A stretch of 44,784 nt of DNA from Terriglobia bacterium (GTDB lineage Bacteria; Acidobacteriota; Terriglobia; UBA7540), in the NCBI GenBank assembly GCA_020073545.1, contig JAIQEZ010000027.1, forward strand, positions 1 to 44,784, read 5' to 3'. Under the pieces are notes generated by a model. That model saw only the letters and a program-made list of their open reading frames with translations. It was not told the DNA's origin and did not search any database. Shown here one piece after another: positions 6,593 to 15,803 of this stretch (position 1 is its first letter; every line of letters starts with the position of its first letter). Position numbers and translations under genes: made by a program.

Positions 6593-7441
6593 ATGAACAA
6601 GGCGGGCGATATTCGCGAAACTGCGGTCAAAGCCCTGGAAGAACACGGATTTCTTTTCCAGAAGAGATGTGTGGATGAAGTCAGGTCTCTGGGTGGCCGC
6701 TATCGGGTTGAATCCGAAGAATATCCTGTTTCAATCGGACTGGAAGATACTGTCATCGATTTCGTGTTGAGAATGCTCGACACTGGGCGCACCTATGTTG
6801 TCTTCGAATGTAAGCGTGCCAACCCTGAATATGTCTTCTGGGTCTTCCCTGCGAGTTCATTGACGCCCGCGCCACGGCGACAATTCTTGATGACAACGGT
6901 CGGGCATCTGGTTCACGCTCCGACGAAGGCAGTTGTTCAGACACATGAGTGCCATATCTTCGGGGGTGATCCGCCCCATTTTGTGGACATGGGACTTGAA
7001 GTTTCACGCGGCAAACGCACACAGGGCAAATCGGGCAGGACTGAGAACATCTATGCTGCATGCACGCAGGTGCTGACGGGAGTCGGCGGCCTCGCGAACG
7101 AGCGGAAAAAGCGAATGGACCCGAATGCGCCGCAGACCTATTTCTACATTCCGGTGGTGATTACCTCAGCGGATCTCTTCGTAACCAGATACAAGCCTAT
7201 CGATGTCGACTTGAAGACAGGGAGCATTCCTTTGGAGAAGGCGGAGACGCAGGCTGTTGACTGGGTGATTTATGATTTTCCGGTGCCCGAGCCGCTGCAA
7301 GTGACCCCACGAGAAGACTCCATGTCGACTTTGGTTGGTCCTGATGACGGTTACAGGCGGCTGTTCAAGTTAAAATCGATTGCAATTGTCCGGTCCACCA
7401 GTGTCGCTCAGTTTCTTCAGCAGTTGAAGTCGCCAGATTAA
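6593..7441 (+). CDS. Possible PD-(D/E)XK-superfamily nuclease of unknown specificity
   Basis: 282 residues, no named family recognised. The N-terminal 80 residues are laid out like a restriction-endonuclease fold: an early helix (RETAVKALEEHGF), then Asp in VIDFVLRML (residues about 56-64), a turn, and the strand YVVFECKRAN with Glu and Lys in E-x-K spacing. Asp plus E-x-K is the catalytic pattern of this superfamily. The C-terminal half contains FYIPVVITSADLFV, a strand-rich stretch seen in uncharacterised restriction-like proteins. AAAGGA lies 11 or so bases before the ATG. It is divergent from the 5323-6069 gene and flanked by an identical 20-bp direct repeat, suggesting arrival as a unit. 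Nuclease activity is inference from the motif. Confidence 0.6.
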   Translation: MNKAGDIRETAVKALEEHGFLFQKRCVDEVRSLGGRYRVESEEYPVSIGLEDTVIDFVLRMLDTGRTYVVFECKRANPEYVFWVFPASSLTPAPRRQFLMTTVGHLVHAPTKAVVQTHECHIFGGDPPHFVDMGLEVSRGKRTQGKSGRTENIYAACTQVLTGVGGLANERKKRMDPNAPQTYFYIPVVITSADLFVTRYKPIDVDLKTGSIPLEKAETQAVDWVIYDFPVPEPLQVTPREDSMSTLVGPDDGYRRLFKLKSIAIVRSTSVAQFLQQLKSPD

Positions 7442-7465
7442 GATGTCTCCTTGCTGTTAGCACCC

Positions 7466-7485
7466 TACCCGCGATCAACGCCGTA
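7466..7485 (+). repeat. 20-bp direct repeat, right copy
   Basis: Identical to 6317-6336. It begins 25 bases after the stop codon of the putative nuclease gene. The rest of the gap (7486-7756) shows no gene or recognisable site. Confidence 0.6.
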
Positions 7486-7756
7486 CGGTAGAGCGATATC
7501 GCTCAACTCGTGTATCGCCCCGCGCACGGAAAGTACGGCTAGGTCGGGGCTCAGATCCAGCGCACAGCAATATGGATGTCGGCTAACCGTAGATGTGGTC
7601 TGAGCTGTCATTTCTGACGGTCGCGCTTCGATGACGGGGGACTCAGAAACTTCCGCAGCATTACTGCCGACGATAACCAGTGCCTACCATTTGTCGCTCG
7701 TAATATGTGCCCAAACCCCGAAAATCATGTACTACGCGATCGCGTGGTGGTTCTGC

Positions 7757-8822: not shown

Positions 8823-10097
8823 TCAGCGCCAGTCCCGGGTATACGGTTTGAGTTCGCCGACGATGAACCAATAGGCCAGCAGGCCGGCAACCAGAACCAC
8901 CGCGGCGAGCGCAAAGCCCGGAAGGTAAGTTCCGGTGCGGGCGATAAGAAAGCCTGTGGCGAGAGGCGCGAGGATCCCGCCCAAGTTCCCGGCAAAATTC
9001 TGAACGCCGGTCCAGATACCGACTTCCTCGGGCGGGGCACAGCATTGCAGGATGACGATCAGGTTCCCGGTGGCAAGCCCCACAAGCGAGCCGCCGATGA
9101 TGAACGCGAGGGCGGTAAGGGCGGTGTCGGCGCGGGCGGCGGGAATGAGCAGTAGTCCGGTAAGGAAAGCGACCGTGACGATGCTTTTCCGGGTGCGGGT
9201 CTCGTCCCAGCCCCAGCGGATAAACCAGTCGGCGACCCAGCCGCCGATCGGTTCACTGGCGCCGAAGACGAAATAGGGCAGGGAAGCGTAGATGCCCGCG
9301 CGCAGCAGGGTGAGCTGGCGGACGGTAACGAGATAGTCGGGGAGCCAGGTGACCAGCAGATACCAGTAGTAGTCGAAGCAGAAGAAACCCAGGCAGATGC
9401 CGAGCAGGTTACGGTTGAGGTGGAGGCGGCGGGCCGGGCGCGGCTTGGCGGCCGCAGAATCGCTCCGCACGCCTCTGAGATTTTTGGGAGCGGTGGCGAG
9501 CCAGGGCCCCAGCCACACGAGCGCCGTGAAGCCCACCAGCGCAAACATGCGACGCCAGCCGTAGAGCACGACGAGCGCGGCAACCAGCGGCGCACCCAAA
9601 GCGAGGCCCGCACGCGTGCCGCTATCGAAAAGCCCGGAAGGCAAGCCGCGCTCCCGGGAAGAGAAGAGTAGGCTCACGATTTTCGTTCCGCCAGGAAGAT
9701 AAATGGACTCGCCAACGCCGAGCAGGATGCGGAGCAGAATCAGGATCAGCAGGCTGCCCGCGAGCCCTGTCAATCCGCAGGCGAGTGACCAAAGCGCAAA
9801 AAGACCCGCGTAGAGCCAGCGGAGGTTAAGGCGGTCCGCGCCCCAGCCGACGGGGATCTGCATCAGGGCGTAAGACCAGAAGAAGGAGGAAAGCAGCAGC
9901 CCTTTGGTCTCGGGGCCGAGATGGAGATCGAGCGAGATGAGCGGCAGGGCCACGGAGAGCGTGGCGCGATCGAGATAGTTGATAAAGGAGGCCGCGAACA
10001 GTAAGCCTATCAGCGCCCAGCGGCGAGGGTTGGAAATGGGCAGGAGGCCGGCGCCGGAGGCGCCCGCGTCCTGGACAGAAATGTTTGTTTTGCTCAC
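8823..10097 (-). CDS. MFS transporter, anion:cation symporter-like (hexuronate/sugar-acid type)
   Basis: 424 residues from the GTG at 10097, which follows GGAG closely; the frame is open further upstream but the added sequence is not protein-like. About twelve membrane segments are visible. INYLDRATLSVALPLI in helix 1 and the loop motif GWGADRLNLRW are typical of the ACS family (glucarate, galactonate and hexuronate carriers). It acts in the inner membrane; the substrate is not determined, but a second MFS gene, iolB and DUF6807 nearby point to sugar acids. It has no close operon partner: the next gene on its strand ends beyond 12 kb. Confidence 0.8.
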   Translation of the reverse strand: MSKTNISVQDAGASGAGLLPISNPRRWALIGLLFAASFINYLDRATLSVALPLISLDLHLGPETKGLLLSSFFWSYALMQIPVGWGADRLNLRWLYAGLFALWSLACGLTGLAGSLLILILLRILLGVGESIYLPGGTKIVSLLFSSRERGLPSGLFDSGTRAGLALGAPLVAALVVLYGWRRMFALVGFTALVWLGPWLATAPKNLRGVRSDSAAAKPRPARRLHLNRNLLGICLGFFCFDYYWYLLVTWLPDYLVTVRQLTLLRAGIYASLPYFVFGASEPIGGWVADWFIRWGWDETRTRKSIVTVAFLTGLLLIPAARADTALTALAFIIGGSLVGLATGNLIVILQCCAPPEEVGIWTGVQNFAGNLGGILAPLATGFLIARTGTYLPGFALAAVVLVAGLLAYWFIVGELKPYTRDWR

Positions 10098-10840
10098 TCC
10101 GCCATCTCCATGCACGAGGTGGCGGCAGCATATCGCAATCTGCGGGGCGGTCAAGGGGAGAAAGCGAGTACGCACGTGAATGATCTCCCGCGCAGCTACA
10201 CAGACCGGTCTGAGCAGCCCGCACGCAGGCGCATGGAACGTGGCCCCACGAGTACGCGTTGCTTTATGCGAGCTTTTTTGTTGACGCCGCGCGCCCCAGG
10301 CAACGAAGTGAGAGAGTTGCGGCATCACAAACGCCGGGCAAGAAATTCGCATTTCATGATTTCGGGCGGAGTGTCGGCGCCATGCGGGAATATGCACGGC
10401 GAGGATTTTACGTACTGATTCTTCTCGCGGCTTCGGGCGTGGCGGGATGGATCGTGGCGAACTGGGCAGGTCCGGGAGAATTCGTGCCGGACCAGCCCGG
10501 GCAGGTGGCGCGTCTAGGAAAGTCGCGCCTTGCCGCTCGTTCGTCACGCGCCACCGCTGACGACGGCCACCCTTATCTTCCCCCGAGGCTGCAGACAGTC
10601 GATTTCCTTCTCCTTTCTACCTCCCCTCTAACTCTCACCCTCGCGACCCTGATGAGGGCAGAGAAGGACCTCCTCAGCTTGACGCAGCGGCGACGCGAAT
10701 AGAACCACGATGCGCGCTTGCGTGGAACGGCCGGCGTCTTGTTTGCGCCGGTCGAGGGTTCTTCTTTTCTCGCGCGACCCAGGGGGTGTGAACACCCTGC
10801 CGCGCGAGGACCAAGCCGACAAGCAAGAAGGGAGGCGACC
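10098..10840. other. Intergenic region with a possible small membrane ORF
   Basis: A frame from ATG 10382 to 10702 (+) begins MREYARRGFYVLILLAASG and could form one membrane helix, but its second half is low-quality sequence, so I do not call a gene. TTGACG at 10679-10684 with TAGAAC 15 bases on (10700-10705) is a weak candidate promoter for the receiver gene at 10841. Confidence 0.3.
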
Positions 10841-11281
10841 GTGGCAAGATCTGCTGATCTGCAATTCAATCGACCCTGTTCCTTTCTTCCTCGGGGCAGG
10901 GTATTGCTCGTTGATGAAGATGGAAACGATCTTCGGTATTACACGGCGCTGTTGTGGCGTCTGGGTTACGTCGTGCGGCCGTTTGCGAGTTACCAGGAGG
11001 CGGAGAGCTGCCTGCAACGCGAGCCGATTGATTTCATCATGGTGAACCAGGGCAGCCCGGCGTTTGAAGCGCGAGGGCTCGTGGAGCGCGCCCTCGCACG
11101 CAACCGCCGCACGCCGGTCGTGGTGCTGACCCACTGCTTGGATATGAGCTGCTACCTCGAGGCGATGCAACTGGGAGCGGTGGATTATCTCGAGAAGCCT
11201 CTGGCGCCTGCCGACGTGGAGCACTTGGTGACTACGCACGCACAGCCTGGCCTGCTCGAAATGCGCGGGCACAGGGCCTGA
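10841..11281 (+). CDS. Receiver-domain protein lacking the phospho-acceptor Asp (paralogue 1)
   Basis: 146 residues from a GTG preceded by GGGAGG at 4-5 bases. It is a single CheY-like domain without output domain. The acidic cluster is present (LLVDEDGND, Asp25 and Asp27), as are Thr97 (VVVLTHC) and Lys119 (YLEKP), but the position of the phosphorylated Asp is Asn69 in DFIMVNQGS. Ordinary His-Asp phosphotransfer is therefore not expected; such pseudo-receivers usually act through fixed protein contacts. The next gene on this strand, at 12036, is a paralogue with Ser at the same place. Partner and pathway are unknown; no histidine kinase is nearby. Confidence 0.8.
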   Translation: MARSADLQFNRPCSFLPRGRVLLVDEDGNDLRYYTALLWRLGYVVRPFASYQEAESCLQREPIDFIMVNQGSPAFEARGLVERALARNRRTPVVVLTHCLDMSCYLEAMQLGAVDYLEKPLAPADVEHLVTTHAQPGLLEMRGHRA

Positions 11282-11583
11282 AGGCGAGGCAGGTGGAACC
11301 GCAACGAAGTGGCAGGCTCGCGGACAGCGCGGGTTTTGGGCGTTGGCTGTTGCCTTCCCAGCGCCGGGGTATTGCCGGGGAGGTTTCGGACCTGAGCGCA
11401 GAGTTCAGATGGAAGGGCGGCGGCCTTGAACCCTCTGACCGAGACAGCGACAATTGGTCGCCTGCAGGCGCTGGATTGCGCCAGACTCTTTTTCATCTGA
11501 GAGCATGCTCGGCTTGTCGACTCACCATCTGATGTCAACACTCCGTCAACCAGTATTCAGGCATCGGTTAGTTCAGAATGTGC

Positions 11584-11612
11584 TTGACATCAGTTTGCCG
11601 GAAGAGTAGATT
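11584..11612 (+). promoter_or_regulatory. Strong sigma-70-like promoter far upstream of the second receiver gene
   Basis: TTGACA (11584-11589), 17-base spacer, TAGATT (11607-11612). It is the best promoter match in the 750-base gap and would start transcription near 11619, leaving a leader of more than 400 bases before the ATG at 12036. Confidence 0.6.
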
Positions 11613-12035
11613 CCCGGAGGGTTTTGGGCTTTGCGGAGGAAACTTCCGTTCGGAATTCTCATGGTGGTTTGGGCACCGTGCGTGGGGTCACGGCCGAGAC
11701 CACCCAACCCAACGAGCCCCCATGGGCGCCTCGCGAGTTGACCCGTGAGTGAACGGCAGGAGTGTTTGGATGCCTCTCCTGGGGATGTTGAACTTTCCAC
11801 TTCCGAAGTACAGTGCGGACATTCGTCCCTTCACAATGACCGTATCCCCGGCGAACCCCCAAGGGGGTGCTGAGAATCCCCTCGTACCAAAAAGAGCATA
11901 GGGAGCCACATAAGTTTCAACTGATTTCCCGTCGCCGCGGTCGTGGGGGGCATGGGTGTTTCTCTCCGCAAAGCGCGATGGCACTCCAACTCGACTTGGA
12001 AAAGGGGTCAAGCAACGACGAAATGGAGAACTCCC
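11613..12035 (+). other. Long untranslated leader of the second receiver gene
   Basis: No convincing coding frame is visible. Short inverted repeats are present, for example GGAGGAAACTTCC near 11635, GGTGGT/ACCACC (about 11661 and 11700) and CCCCCAAGGGGG near 11860. I do not recognise a known riboswitch class. It may be a structured 5' leader or simply intergenic sequence. Confidence 0.35.
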
Positions 12036-12479
12036 ATGTCAAGCGACACTCTCACTCAGCGAGGAATCGAGTTTGGACGTCGATTGGGGAAAGGGAAAGT
12101 CCTGCTGGTGGATGAGGACACAGGCGACTTGAAACTTTATTGCTTGGTTCTCGAGGGGCAGGGTTTCGAGCTTTTCACCTGCACTTCATACGAAGCCGGC
12201 GTCCAATGCCTGGAGACGGAGCCTTTCGACTTTGTGCTGGTGAGCCAGGGCAGCCAGGCCTTCGAAGGTCGGAGGGTGCTGGACCGTGCGATACAGTTGG
12301 ACCGTCGCCGGGCCGTGCTGGTGGTGACGCGCTGCATCGATATGGGTTGCTACCTGGAAGCCATGCAAATGGGTGCGGCGGATTACGTGGAGAAACCGGT
12401 CCCACCCGCGGAGCTGCTGCGGTTCGTGCAGGCGCACATCCAGGTCGACAGGCTCAGCATGCAGGGAAGCGCTGCCTGA
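12036..12479 (+). CDS. Receiver-domain protein lacking the phospho-acceptor Asp (paralogue 2)
   Basis: 147 residues from the ATG at 12036, with GGAG 7 bases upstream. It aligns end to end with the 10841-11281 product: LLVDEDTGD (Asp26, Asp28), CYLEAMQMGAADYVEKP with Lys120, and Thr98. The phosphorylation site is Ser70 (DFVLVSQGS). Both paralogues thus lost the Asp but to different residues, and both keep the Q-G-S that follows. As no output domain is attached, it probably works by binding another protein. It ends 17 bases before the convergent MFS gene. Confidence 0.8.
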   Translation: MSSDTLTQRGIEFGRRLGKGKVLLVDEDTGDLKLYCLVLEGQGFELFTCTSYEAGVQCLETEPFDFVLVSQGSQAFEGRRVLDRAIQLDRRRAVLVVTRCIDMGCYLEAMQMGAADYVEKPVPPAELLRFVQAHIQVDRLSMQGSAA

Positions 12480-12496
12480 AGCGGCGGACGCGTTTT

Positions 12497-13807
12497 CTAC
12501 CCGCCGGCCGCAGCAGGCGGCACGGCATTCTCGATGCGCGGAATGAGCCAGTGAACGAGCCCCATCGCCAGGGGGTGCATGACTCCGGCGATGAGGAAGA
12601 GCGGGACATACGAGTGGAACCATTGCAGGGTGTAGCCTGCCACGGGCGCAATAATCATTCCCCCGAGGGCGCCGGCCGCGCCGCCCAGTCCAACCACTGA
12701 GCCCACGTCCTTCTTCGGGAACATATCTGAAGCCAACGTGTACACGTTGGCTGACCACCCTTGGTGTGCTGCGGTCGCAACGGAGATGAAGGCGAGCGCC
12801 CACCAGGGGCTGCGGGAGAACACGGCCAGGATGCCCGCAGGCATCAGTAAGGCGCAGGCCAGCAGGGTGGTCTTGCGCGCAAAGTTAACGGAACGTCCGC
12901 GGCGAAGCAGGAAGCCGGAAAGCCACCCGCTGACGATCGAGCCCGGTACCGCTGCCACCCAGGGAATTGTTCCGAAAAGCGCTAGCCCGGCGATCGAGAA
13001 ATGGCGCACCTCGATCAGGTACTTGGGCAGCCAGAAAATGTAGAACCACCAGATGGGATCGGTCAGGAACTTGGCCAGCGTGAAACCCCAGGCCTGGCGG
13101 TAGCGGAAAATCTCCAGCCACGACAGACCTTTCCCGGGCGAGTCGGACCCCTCGCCATCCGTGGTCTCGATCTGCTGGAGCTCAGCCGGCGTGAGCCAAC
13201 CGTGCTGCCGTGGAAGACGGTAGAGAAGCAGCCAGGCGGCAAGACAGACGAAGCCCAGGGCGCCCGTGCCGATAAAGGCCGCCTTCCAACCCCATTTGAG
13301 GAACAACCACCCCACGACTGGGTAGGCTACCACCGTGCCTACGGATGTCCCAGAGTTGAAGATCGCGGTGGCCAAGGCACGCTCGCGCTTGGGGAACCAT
13401 TCCGCCACCGCCTTGATAGAGGCGGGAAAATTGCCGGCCTCTCCCGCCCCCAGCAGGAAGCGGGCCGCGGCAAATGACATCACGCCGCGCGCCAGGGCGT
13501 GTCCCATCGCCGCGAGCGACCACCAGGTCAGTGCCAGCGCGTAGCCGATTCGCGTTCCTAGCCGGTCGACGCCGCCGCCGAAGACCAACATCATGATCGC
13601 GTAGGCCAACTGGAAGGCAAAGACGATCCAGCCGTAGTCACTCTCCGTCCAATCAAAGAGCTGCTGCAGATGATGGGCGAGAATGGCGATGGTGCCGCGG
13701 TCGATGTAGTTGACGAGCGTGCCGCAGAATAACAACCCGCAGATCAGCCAGCGCAGGTGAGGGATTCGGGCCGGGTTCGCCAGGGCTGGAGGTGTGGCCC
13801 GGGGCAT
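12497..13807 (-). CDS. MFS transporter, ExuT-like hexuronate carrier
   Basis: About 436 residues from the ATG at 13807; an in-frame ATG at 13861 adds 18 residues and cannot be excluded, and neither has a good ribosome site. The ExuT-type hallmarks are visible: LVNYIDRGTIAILAHHLQ in helix 1, LGAGEAGNFPASIKAVAEW, and NSGTSVGTVVAYPVVGW with KWGWKAAFI. Homologues import glucuronate and galacturonate by proton symport at the inner membrane. Downstream neighbours on the other side, iolB and a DUF6807 protein on the same strand, suggest a sugar-acid catabolic set, with this gene last. Confidence 0.8.
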   Translation of the reverse strand: MPRATPPALANPARIPHLRWLICGLLFCGTLVNYIDRGTIAILAHHLQQLFDWTESDYGWIVFAFQLAYAIMMLVFGGGVDRLGTRIGYALALTWWSLAAMGHALARGVMSFAAARFLLGAGEAGNFPASIKAVAEWFPKRERALATAIFNSGTSVGTVVAYPVVGWLFLKWGWKAAFIGTGALGFVCLAAWLLLYRLPRQHGWLTPAELQQIETTDGEGSDSPGKGLSWLEIFRYRQAWGFTLAKFLTDPIWWFYIFWLPKYLIEVRHFSIAGLALFGTIPWVAAVPGSIVSGWLSGFLLRRGRSVNFARKTTLLACALLMPAGILAVFSRSPWWALAFISVATAAHQGWSANVYTLASDMFPKKDVGSVVGLGGAAGALGGMIIAPVAGYTLQWFHSYVPLFLIAGVMHPLAMGLVHWLIPRIENAVPPAAAGG

Positions 13808-13934
13808 AGCAGGTTCGGAATCCGAGAATGGGGTGCGCACGAATGTCCTTCCGCCGGGCATTCTATGATGAGGCCATGCGCCTGTCCAGGGCGTGACGGG
13901 AAGCCTTCTTCCCCAGACGTGGTGGACGCTGCGG

Positions 13935-14753
13935 TCAGGGATTCATCACCCAGGCGTGGCGCGGGTCGTCAGCCCACGCGCCATAGCGCCGCTCTTCGCC
14001 CGCGAGCACCCAGGTGTAGTGGAGTTCGTAACCGGGCGCGGCCACCACGGGATGGTAGCCTTTTGGCAACAGCACCGTGTCACCGTCTTCGACGACGAAC
14101 ACGCTGGAGAAACCTTCCGGGTCATCCGGCGCGGTGTAAGTCCAGATGAAGCCGAAACCCTGCGCGGGCTTGACGCGGAAGAAATAGATCTCTTCGAGCA
14201 CGGCTTCTTGCGGCGGGTTGGAGTGGTCGTGCTTGTGAGGCGGAAAACTCGACCAATTGCCGGGGGGGTTCAGGGTTTCGCCCGCCAACAGACGCTCCGC
14301 CGGCACATTTTCGCCCAGCGCCGAGTACACCGTACGCTGCCAGTTGGCGCGACCGACTTGCTTGGCGACAACGGTCGAACCTTCCAGCAGCGCCGCCGGG
14401 GCTGGTGAGCTTGACGGAGCGGAGAAGAGCCCCATTTCTACTGGCGACTCCGCCTTGATCTCCACCTGCGAGTTGGGCGGGATATAGCTCATCACTGGTG
14501 GCCCGGAGAAGACGTCCGCACGTTTTCCGATCTGCCTGTAAAGCTCCTTACTTCTCCCGGCCGTACTGATGGTCAGGGTTACAGCGCCGGAGAAGAGGTC
14601 GAGCACGTACTCGCGCCCGCCGCTACGCAGCGAGTGGCGGTCACCTGTTTCCAGTCGCAGGGTGGCGAAGTCGAGGAAACGCATCGTGCCGGGGGCGACG
14701 ATCTGCTGGCACTTTCCATCCTTGCGAGCTTTGATGAGCCGGTCCATGAACAC
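13935..14753 (-). CDS. iolB: 5-deoxy-glucuronate isomerase
   Basis: 272 residues, the normal IolB length. In the inositol pathway this cupin converts 5-deoxy-D-glucuronate to 2-deoxy-5-keto-D-gluconate. Signature stretches are ETLNPPGNWSSFPPHKHD with the two metal-binding His, LEEIYFFRVKPAQGFG, and DTVLLPKGYHPVVAAPGY. It lies between the ExuT-like transporter and the DUF6807 gene, all on the minus strand with short gaps. No other iol gene is in the window, so the pathway is either encoded elsewhere or this homologue serves a related uronate. Confidence 0.88.
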   Translation of the reverse strand: MFMDRLIKARKDGKCQQIVAPGTMRFLDFATLRLETGDRHSLRSGGREYVLDLFSGAVTLTISTAGRSKELYRQIGKRADVFSGPPVMSYIPPNSQVEIKAESPVEMGLFSAPSSSPAPAALLEGSTVVAKQVGRANWQRTVYSALGENVPAERLLAGETLNPPGNWSSFPPHKHDHSNPPQEAVLEEIYFFRVKPAQGFGFIWTYTAPDDPEGFSSVFVVEDGDTVLLPKGYHPVVAAPGYELHYTWVLAGEERRYGAWADDPRHAWVMNP

Positions 14754-14804
14754 CTCGAAGGGATTTTGGGGGTACCGCCTCTTCCCACGCGGCCCCGCTT
14801 GCTC

Positions 14805-15803
14805 TTACTTGCTTTCGGCGTAGCGGCGGTAAGCTTCGGCGACCTGGGCCTCCGCAGCGTCGCCGTGGTGGATCAGCACGCGGTAACGCAACGTAAGCGA
14901 CTGGCCTGCGGAAATCGTGACGCTGCCGTCGCGCTTGGGGTCCCTGTAAAAGTCGTGCTCGCCGAAGGGGTTAACCGCGAACAGCCCGTATTCGCGGGCG
15001 TGCCAGTAGGTCGGGTGCTTGATATTCGCAGGGTTATCCAATATAGCAATACCAAGCGTTTCTCCCGCCACCACGCCTGAGTAATCTACCCAGTCGGCAC
15101 GCTTGCCCCAGATTTCTTTCTCACCCACCTTGCCTTCCGAGTTCAACATCTCGACGTTGGGGGCTTCGAGCGCTTTCACCAAGCGAATGGCCAAGGTGCC
15201 TTCCTTGGTATCGCCCAGCTTCAGAGGCACACCTTGGTTGGCGTCGAGGGTAAAGGCGCAGTCGATGACGCGCGTGGAGGCGTCGCCGTGGAAGGTATAT
15301 TGCTGCGTTTCGCTGCCGATTGCCTTGCCATCGGGGCCGACCAGGTCGAACGTCGCTCGCAGCATGCCGCCCTTCGCCACATCGAGCTTGCGGAAGACGG
15401 TCCGGCCCTTCGGCAGCTCTTCACTCGAGTAATACACGCCCTTGGCCGATTGTTCCTGCTTGGTCGGCTGGCCTTCGCCCCAGAAATCGATGCCATTAAT
15501 ATCGCCGTGCGCAAAGAATAGGGCGCGATGGTGCGGGTGGTCGCGGCTCTCGCCGGGAACGTCGGTGCGCATGGGGAATCCGCGCGTTACGATGGTGCCT
15601 TCCGCCGAGCGCAAGGGGTGCAGATAAGGCTTGGGTGAATGGGCGCCATAGTAATAAGTCGTGAAGGGCTTCCCCGCCATGAGCACCTCGATGGAATCGG
15701 GATGCTGTTGGAACTTCACCGGCTGGTCGACGCCCGCCAGGAAGGCACAGGAAGGGAGGATGGCGAAAGCCAGCAAACATGCGGTCTTTAGGAAGCACGT
15801 CAT
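14805..15803 (-). CDS. Exported DUF6807 (PmoA-like) family protein
   Basis: 332 residues from the ATG at 15803, chosen because it places a signal peptide at the N-terminus (MTCFLKTACLLAFAILPSC; the Cys could be a lipoprotein site). The mature part has SRDHPHHRALFFAHGDING, typical of this beta-rich family, and a C-terminal EYGLFAVNPFGEHDF. The family is abundant in Acidobacteriota and Planctomycetota beside carbohydrate genes; the name 'methane oxygenase PmoA' on some members is misleading, and the true reaction is unknown. The stop is about 50 bases from the iolB start, so the two are likely one operon. Confidence 0.8.
   Translation of the reverse strand: MTCFLKTACLLAFAILPSCAFLAGVDQPVKFQQHPDSIEVLMAGKPFTTYYYGAHSPKPYLHPLRSAEGTIVTRGFPMRTDVPGESRDHPHHRALFFAHGDINGIDFWGEGQPTKQEQSAKGVYYSSEELPKGRTVFRKLDVAKGGMLRATFDLVGPDGKAIGSETQQYTFHGDASTRVIDCAFTLDANQGVPLKLGDTKEGTLAIRLVKALEAPNVEMLNSEGKVGEKEIWGKRADWVDYSGVVAGETLGIAILDNPANIKHPTYWHAREYGLFAVNPFGEHDFYRDPKRDGSVTISAGQSLTLRYRVLIHHGDAAEAQVAEAYRRYAESK

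Follow-up and report, generated by a model that had tools for sequence, protein, structure and literature searches.

Introduction

CheY is the classic phosphate-triggered switch, and the two small proteins described here, A and B, resemble single-domain regulators such as CheY and Spo0F in size and fold, while differing from them in having no acceptor Asp and, across their family, in carrying Arg or His at the position after the conserved Thr (Thr+1). As judged from sequence, A and B are aspartate-less receivers (ALRs), i.e., receiver domains without the acceptor Asp, and also pseudo-receivers (PsRs), i.e., receiver matches without key phosphotransfer residues. The part of PMC4395418 drawn on here gives Glu as the most frequent substitute at the acceptor of ALRs, followed by Asn, Ser, Gly, and Ala, and places the Acidobacteria second in ALRs per genome. 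The corresponding part of PMC12632262 calls the switching of bacterial pseudo-receivers a mystery. A and B share with the ALRs and PsRs described in these parts of the two papers the receiver fold, the PF00072 match, and the replaced acceptor. The cases given in that part of PMC12632262 are components of larger proteins, whereas A and B are single-domain and belong to one bacterial family. To the features shared with ALRs and PsRs, this family adds a near-fixed QG[STG]xxFEGR loop, the Arg or His at Thr+1, and variability of the acceptor even among orthologues.

Two further described systems come close. In the sections of PMC1974792 cited here, the receiver of FrzS from Myxococcus xanthus has no phospho-acceptor, keeps and requires its switch Tyr, and binds neither Mg2+ nor BeF3. 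There, the receiver is part of a larger motility protein, and Gly replaces the Thr and Ser one of the acidic residues, whereas A and B are single-domain and keep both. By these described features, FrzS may be likened to A and B as a precedent for a receiver that lacks an acceptor and needs its switch Tyr. WhiI and BldM of Streptomyces, as treated in the cited part of PMC12632262, are a pair of response regulators that function jointly without being phosphorylated in the usual way. Their dimers control genes, whereas A and B lack a DNA-binding domain and also occur apart.

An open-literature search by title and abstract returned no paper on the pseudo-receiver family of A and B. ALRs are a known kind of protein, and what is new here is the family, its signature, its free acceptor position, and the small gene found upstream of A.

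Results

Two stand-alone receivers without the acceptor aspartate

Both genes lie in the window, by which we mean the whole analysed stretch of 44,784 nucleotides from a Terriglobia bacterium (Table 1). The protein products match Pfam Response_reg (PF00072; A, E = 2.2e-11, 44.3 bits; B, E = 6.4e-11, 42.8 bits) above the curated cut-off of 30.2 bits. This is the sole domain above cut-off in either protein, with no DNA-binding output domain; A has an additional sub-threshold match to a glycosyltransferase family. The two are 46% identical over 146 positions. The Asp acceptor expected at the end of beta3 is absent from both, its place being taken by N69 in A and S70 in B and followed in each case by QGS, while DD1 (D), DD2 (E), T, K, and a switch Tyr at K-3 are all present. 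Thus, the open reading frames, Pfam matches, and alignment agree with the earlier note, which had described two stand-alone paralogous receivers with Asn69 or Ser70 before a shared QGS and with the acidic pair, the Thr, and the Lys retained. Its description of two co-directional genes about 750 bases apart, each with its own ribosome site, is also accurate; the intergenic distance is 754 bases, and the ribosome-site-like motifs are GGGAGG at 10830-10835 for A and GGAG at 12025-12028 for B, the stronger one being that of A. The start region of A is conserved in the G006 orthologue.

Table 1. Genes and signal-like features around A and B, in window coordinates.
Feature	Coordinates	Strand	Description
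MFS transporter 1	8823..10097	-	Pfam MFS_1; divergent from small gene and A; start set by custom gene caller
Small gene	10382..10702	+	106 aa; hydrophobic N-terminal segment; C-terminus DLLSLTQRRRE
Pseudo-receiver A	10841..11281	+	146 aa; GTG start; acceptor Asn69; open reading frame and PF00072
Terminator-like hairpin after A	11467..11492	+	No better than chance (3 in region vs a mean of 2.6 in shuffles)
Sigma-70-type promoter-like site before B	11584..11612	+	TTGACA, 17 nt, TAGATT
Pseudo-receiver B	12036..12479	+	147 aa; ATG start; acceptor Ser70; open reading frame and PF00072
MFS transporter 2	12497..13840	-	Pfam MFS_1; convergent with B

AlphaFold2 predicted confident receiver folds for both proteins (mean pLDDT 87.4 for A and 87.8 for B), with five strands and five helices in the receiver order of a (beta-alpha)5 fold. 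When the B model was compared with solved structures, the best among the matches listed was 3crn, a CheY-like protein (Z 21.0, rmsd 1.8, 127 aligned). FrzS was not among the 50 matches listed for the B model, which is no evidence against kinship. In all 20 orthologue pairs of A or B, pN/pS lay between 0.15 and 0.53, with synonymous sites near saturation in many pairs, and by this measure A and B are under purifying selection.

A family found in one acidobacterial lineage

We searched 61 genomes, i.e., the window's own and 60 relatives, with B as the query and then A. Family matches at E <= 1e-15 occurred in 27 of the 37 genomes of the window's own GTDB family vs 0 of the 24 other genomes of the class. 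A profile search of 39 genomes of the GTDB family retrieved 29 at E <= 1e-20; two further genomes, G012 and G015, gave weak matches in this search. At phylum scale, with 13 candidates scored per genome in a sample of 297 genomes, a single genome reached E <= 1e-30, and this was the window's own. One peptide pattern searched against public genome contigs found 24 loci, 22 of them in close relatives (labelled Acidobacteria, Acidobacteriota, or Terriglobia) and 2 weak. Viral relatives were also considered, and none of the 39 pattern matches in viral contigs was related. On this sequence evidence, A and B belong to a lineage-restricted family of stand-alone pseudo-receivers, found in one acidobacterial family as far as searched.

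The alignment used below holds 58 family rows, namely the 59 tblastn matches of at least 60 bits from the fetched regions minus L131, which has an internal stop; weaker profile matches were left out. The excluded sequence comes from a partial third copy in the window's own genome (G000, contig C62, 13619-13831, minus strand; L003 and L131), which is 41% identical over query residues 71-141 and is apparently a decayed gene.

A free acceptor position beside a nearly invariant loop

Over the 58 rows, the acceptor position is occupied by S in 27, D in 10, G in 9, N in 6, A in 3, E in 2, and C in 1. The loop that follows is the near-invariant QG[STG]xxFEGR, with Q in 58 rows, G in 57, S, T, or G in 58, F at D+6 in 57, E at D+7 in 55, G at D+8 in 50, and R at D+9 in 48. 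The estimated site rate (57 rows) is 0.65 at the acceptor vs 0.11-0.12 at the neighbouring Q, G, F, E, and G, and the acceptor ranks 72 in entropy among 118 core columns. The S, D, N, and most G codons at this position are connected by single-base steps.

The second distinguishing position is Thr+1, which is R in 42 and H in 9 of 57 family rows vs A, G, or S in 33 of 39 control receivers from the same genome. A small residue here lets the phosphorylation site be accessed, according to the part of PMC12632262 drawn on. The control was drawn from the 30 best-scoring of the 74 Response_reg matches in the window's genome, whose loci supplied 41 distinct receiver rows, and it is biased to canonical receivers because the best-scoring loci alone were taken. 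Within it, 39 of 40 rows have Asp at the acceptor position, and its absence from A and B is therefore more than chance; Lys is present in 38 of 38 and Thr or Ser in 37 of 39. The corresponding family figures are 32 of 58 for Lys and 30 of 57 for Thr or Ser, with the Tyr at K-3 present in 57 of 58. Of the five catalytic residues, one or more besides the Asp is missing from seven of the ten Asp-bearing rows; nine of the ten have Arg at Thr+1. All five residues are present in L091, L121, and L124, the last of which also has Gly at Thr+1. A sequence resembling the alpha4-beta5 region of the family was also seen in L005, an ordinary receiver of the window's genome.

Two side observations concern the same position. 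L122 (G006) holds close paralogues at 1668-1997 and 7327-7689 of one contig, with Asp at the acceptor in one and Ser in the other. Separately, a second stand-alone receiver-like protein with an LPDGTW motif is encoded upstream of family members in L091 (4417-4872), L121, and L117, and also in L128 (933-1544). Its acceptor is Glu in L091 and L121 and Asp in L117, a similar protein exists in the window's genome (L010), and the family members downstream of it retain the complete or nearly complete set of five catalytic residues.

Acceptor changes on the tree

A tree was built from 57 family rows and 8 outgroup rows, leaving out L098_6494, which is cut by Ns. The fewest acceptor changes that fit this tree number 19, or 7 when only Asp and not-Asp are distinguished. 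A and B fall in separate clades whose sisterhood is unsupported, and the deep branches are without resolution. In the A clade (8 rows, support 100/98) the acceptor reads N, N, S, S, S, D, N, N, and in the six orthologous A genes it reads N, N, N, N, S, D. In contrast, the B clade (6 rows, support 100/99) is entirely Ser, as is the left-out row, giving 7 of 7. With Ser in all B orthologues and N, S, or D in those of A, the Asn and the Ser of the window are not matched losses, and a reading of the pair suggested in the earlier note as two fixed, complementary states, N and S, is not supported, since B alone is constant.

The Asp-bearing A is at the same locus in G001. The earlier note had reasoned that close homologues with Asp at this position would indicate a recent accidental loss, and such a homologue does exist. 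However, it has Gln at DD2, Ala at Thr, and Arg at Thr+1, and it is grouped with the Asn forms (support 99/79), so it does not point to a recent loss in the window. G001 is rated 8% contaminated, although a single 56.9-kb contig carries both its A and its B.

The locus and its neighbours

Of the nine genus genomes covered by the search, five (G000, G001, G002, G006, and G007) have A and B side by side in the same direction. In G005, B stands at a contig end. B but no A was found in G008 (72% complete), where B adjoins an MFS 1 orthologue; A but no B was found in G003 (85% complete), where the small gene and A lie among other genes; and in G004 (58% complete) neither A nor B was found. G003 and G008, both incomplete genomes, speak against the idea that the two always occur together.

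Orthologues of MFS 1 adjoin a family receiver in seven other genomes from three genera among the loci compared (54-83% identical, two of them partial), and orthologues of MFS 2 lie beside B in G006, G005, G002, G007, and G008 (49-80% identity). Common neighbours had been proposed as a check, and clustering the open reading frames around family members by BLAST gave no neighbour shared by the whole family: the MFS gene is present in 11 loci, and the rest of the neighbours are clade-specific. The custom gene caller left 17 of the 58 family genes uncalled and placed some starts too late, including that of A in the window, and it was used for neighbours only. None of the genome's 39 HATPase_c matches is on the window's contig. 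Several other neighbouring genes were seen. Beyond MFS 2 (window 13935-15803, minus strand) are an IolB/KduI-family isomerase (TIGR04378, just above cut-off) and a DUF6807 protein, which may form a sugar or inositol catabolism cluster; a tie to sugar uptake is possible. In L097 and L115, a gene roughly 600-900 bases upstream of the receiver has an end that by eye resembles sigma-factor region 4. L096, L111, L113, and L120 have a common upstream gene beside receivers of two clades, with a hydrophobic start in L113 and L120.

A promoter scan of 10000-12600 found two promoter-like sites, including the one before B, vs a mean of 0.3 in shuffled sequence. By eye, TTGAYA with its 17-nt spacer is shared by the six B upstream regions that were aligned, and the five other than the window's have a TAC-type second box. 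A search of the entire window against Rfam at gathering scores gave no match, which leaves the long region upstream of B unexplained by any described RNA family.

A small gene upstream of A

The small gene, which is absent from the earlier note, has no Pfam or NCBIfam match. It is found in the same frame and place, with 103-108 codons, in six of the eight A-clade rows, and most changes within its last 12 codons are synonymous. A promoter or RNA element was considered for a conserved block ahead of A and rejected, codon-by-codon reading having identified the block as the end of this gene. All 15 pairs of the small gene have pN/pS of 0.35-0.73 (bootstrap upper limits 0.56-0.95), a weaker constraint than on A and B. 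From hydropathy alone, its product is probably exported or membrane-bound. Because its surroundings in G003 differ, the small gene and A can stay together without the transporter. The small gene was not found in the A-clade rows L109 and L130, both from G001, and L109 is preceded by a gene that by eye resembles Crp/Fnr.

A degenerate pattern for the end of the peptide matched 12 times in 11 of the 61 genomes, and six of the matches are these A loci. Of the others, four end in TGG without a stop, one (G018) is out of frame with a long open frame, and one is in G050. The pattern read backwards as a control likewise gave 12 matches in the 61 genomes, with 0 in the nine genus genomes.

In four loci of the distant clade L125-L129, this place is likewise taken by a small gene whose product begins with a hydrophobic segment. 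Homology between these proteins and those of the A clade is not supported (hhalign probability 0.8%), so we claim a similar layout alone. Small open reading frames with a hydrophobic N-terminus precede family genes in 12 of the 55 cases with enough upstream DNA vs 28 of 3000 random positions (binomial 1.3e-13, with bounds set after viewing the data and related loci treated as independent). The 12 are the six A-clade loci, L089, four loci of the L125-L129 clade, and L117, whose open reading frame is without the shared features.

Discussion

The reading that we favour, with a probability of roughly 0.6, is that A and B are phosphorylation-independent pseudo-receivers whose old active-site face has become a fixed binding surface for a partner or ligand. 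The suggestion in the earlier note of selection for a role without Asp phosphorylation gains support from the purifying selection on both genes, the Arg or His at Thr+1, and the conserved loop beside a free acceptor. The acceptor would have dropped out of use early in the family, and thus would now drift among small or polar residues. Judged by conservation along the sequence, the pocket rim (the beta3-alpha3 loop, Thr+1, and the start of alpha4) and alpha4-beta5 would form the constant surface to which a partner protein or ligand binds. Output would then be set by protein amount or by the state of the partner rather than by a kinase, and the small-gene product is probably a working partner of A. 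Three points go against this reading, namely that at least one branch could still be phosphorylated, given the complete catalytic set of L091, L121, and L124 and the Gly at Thr+1 of L124, that the DD residues, Thr, Lys, and Tyr kept in A and B would be superfluous if the pocket were useless, and that an alpha4-beta5 region like that of the family exists in the ordinary receiver L005.

The retained pocket acids, Thr, and Lys of A and B, together with the three rows that have all five catalytic residues, would also suit weak or alternative phospho-receivers, phosphorylated for instance on Ser or Thr, or a family whose Asp-bearing members act as genuine receivers, with the others as competitors for a kinase. 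Ser/Thr phosphorylation of GlnR and binding competitors, both described in the cited part of PMC12632262, offer precedents. We nevertheless regard phosphorylation of either sort as unlikely given the Arg or His at Thr+1 in 51 of 57 rows, the loss of Lys and of Thr or Ser in so many members, and the absence of any HATPase_c match from the contig.

That A and B form an obligate heterodimer or an opposing pair, each with a different dead acceptor, strikes us as quite improbable. The two are paralogues and lie adjacent and co-directional in five of the nine genus genomes, but B occurs without A in G008 and A with the small gene occurs without B in G003 (72% and 85% complete, respectively), the acceptor of A varies among N, S, and D in orthologues, B has its own promoter-like site, and the two fall in separate clades with unsupported sisterhood. 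Finally, decay of response regulators, with the Asp losses as neutral accidents before gene loss, would fit the patchy presence (27 of 37 genomes), the partial third copy with its internal stop, and the frequent acceptor changes on the tree, but it is highly improbable in view of the intact, selected copies across the genus, the low pN/pS in all 20 pairs of A and B, and a loop with Q in all 58 rows and the next G in 57.

The family is a natural experiment in which one fold, in 58 sequences, carries seven different residues at the acceptor beside a nearly frozen loop, and with it the purpose that a receiver serves without phosphate can be studied. A possible mark of a dead receiver, independent of the Asp, also emerges, namely Arg or His at Thr+1, which is present in nine of the ten Asp-bearing members. 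More speculatively, and in our estimate rather improbably, the small gene and A may constitute an envelope unit without a kinase, in which sensing or marking of the envelope falls to the small protein and the docking face of the pseudo-receiver relays or stores the information. If so, the family would be a signalling system of receivers without phosphate chemistry.
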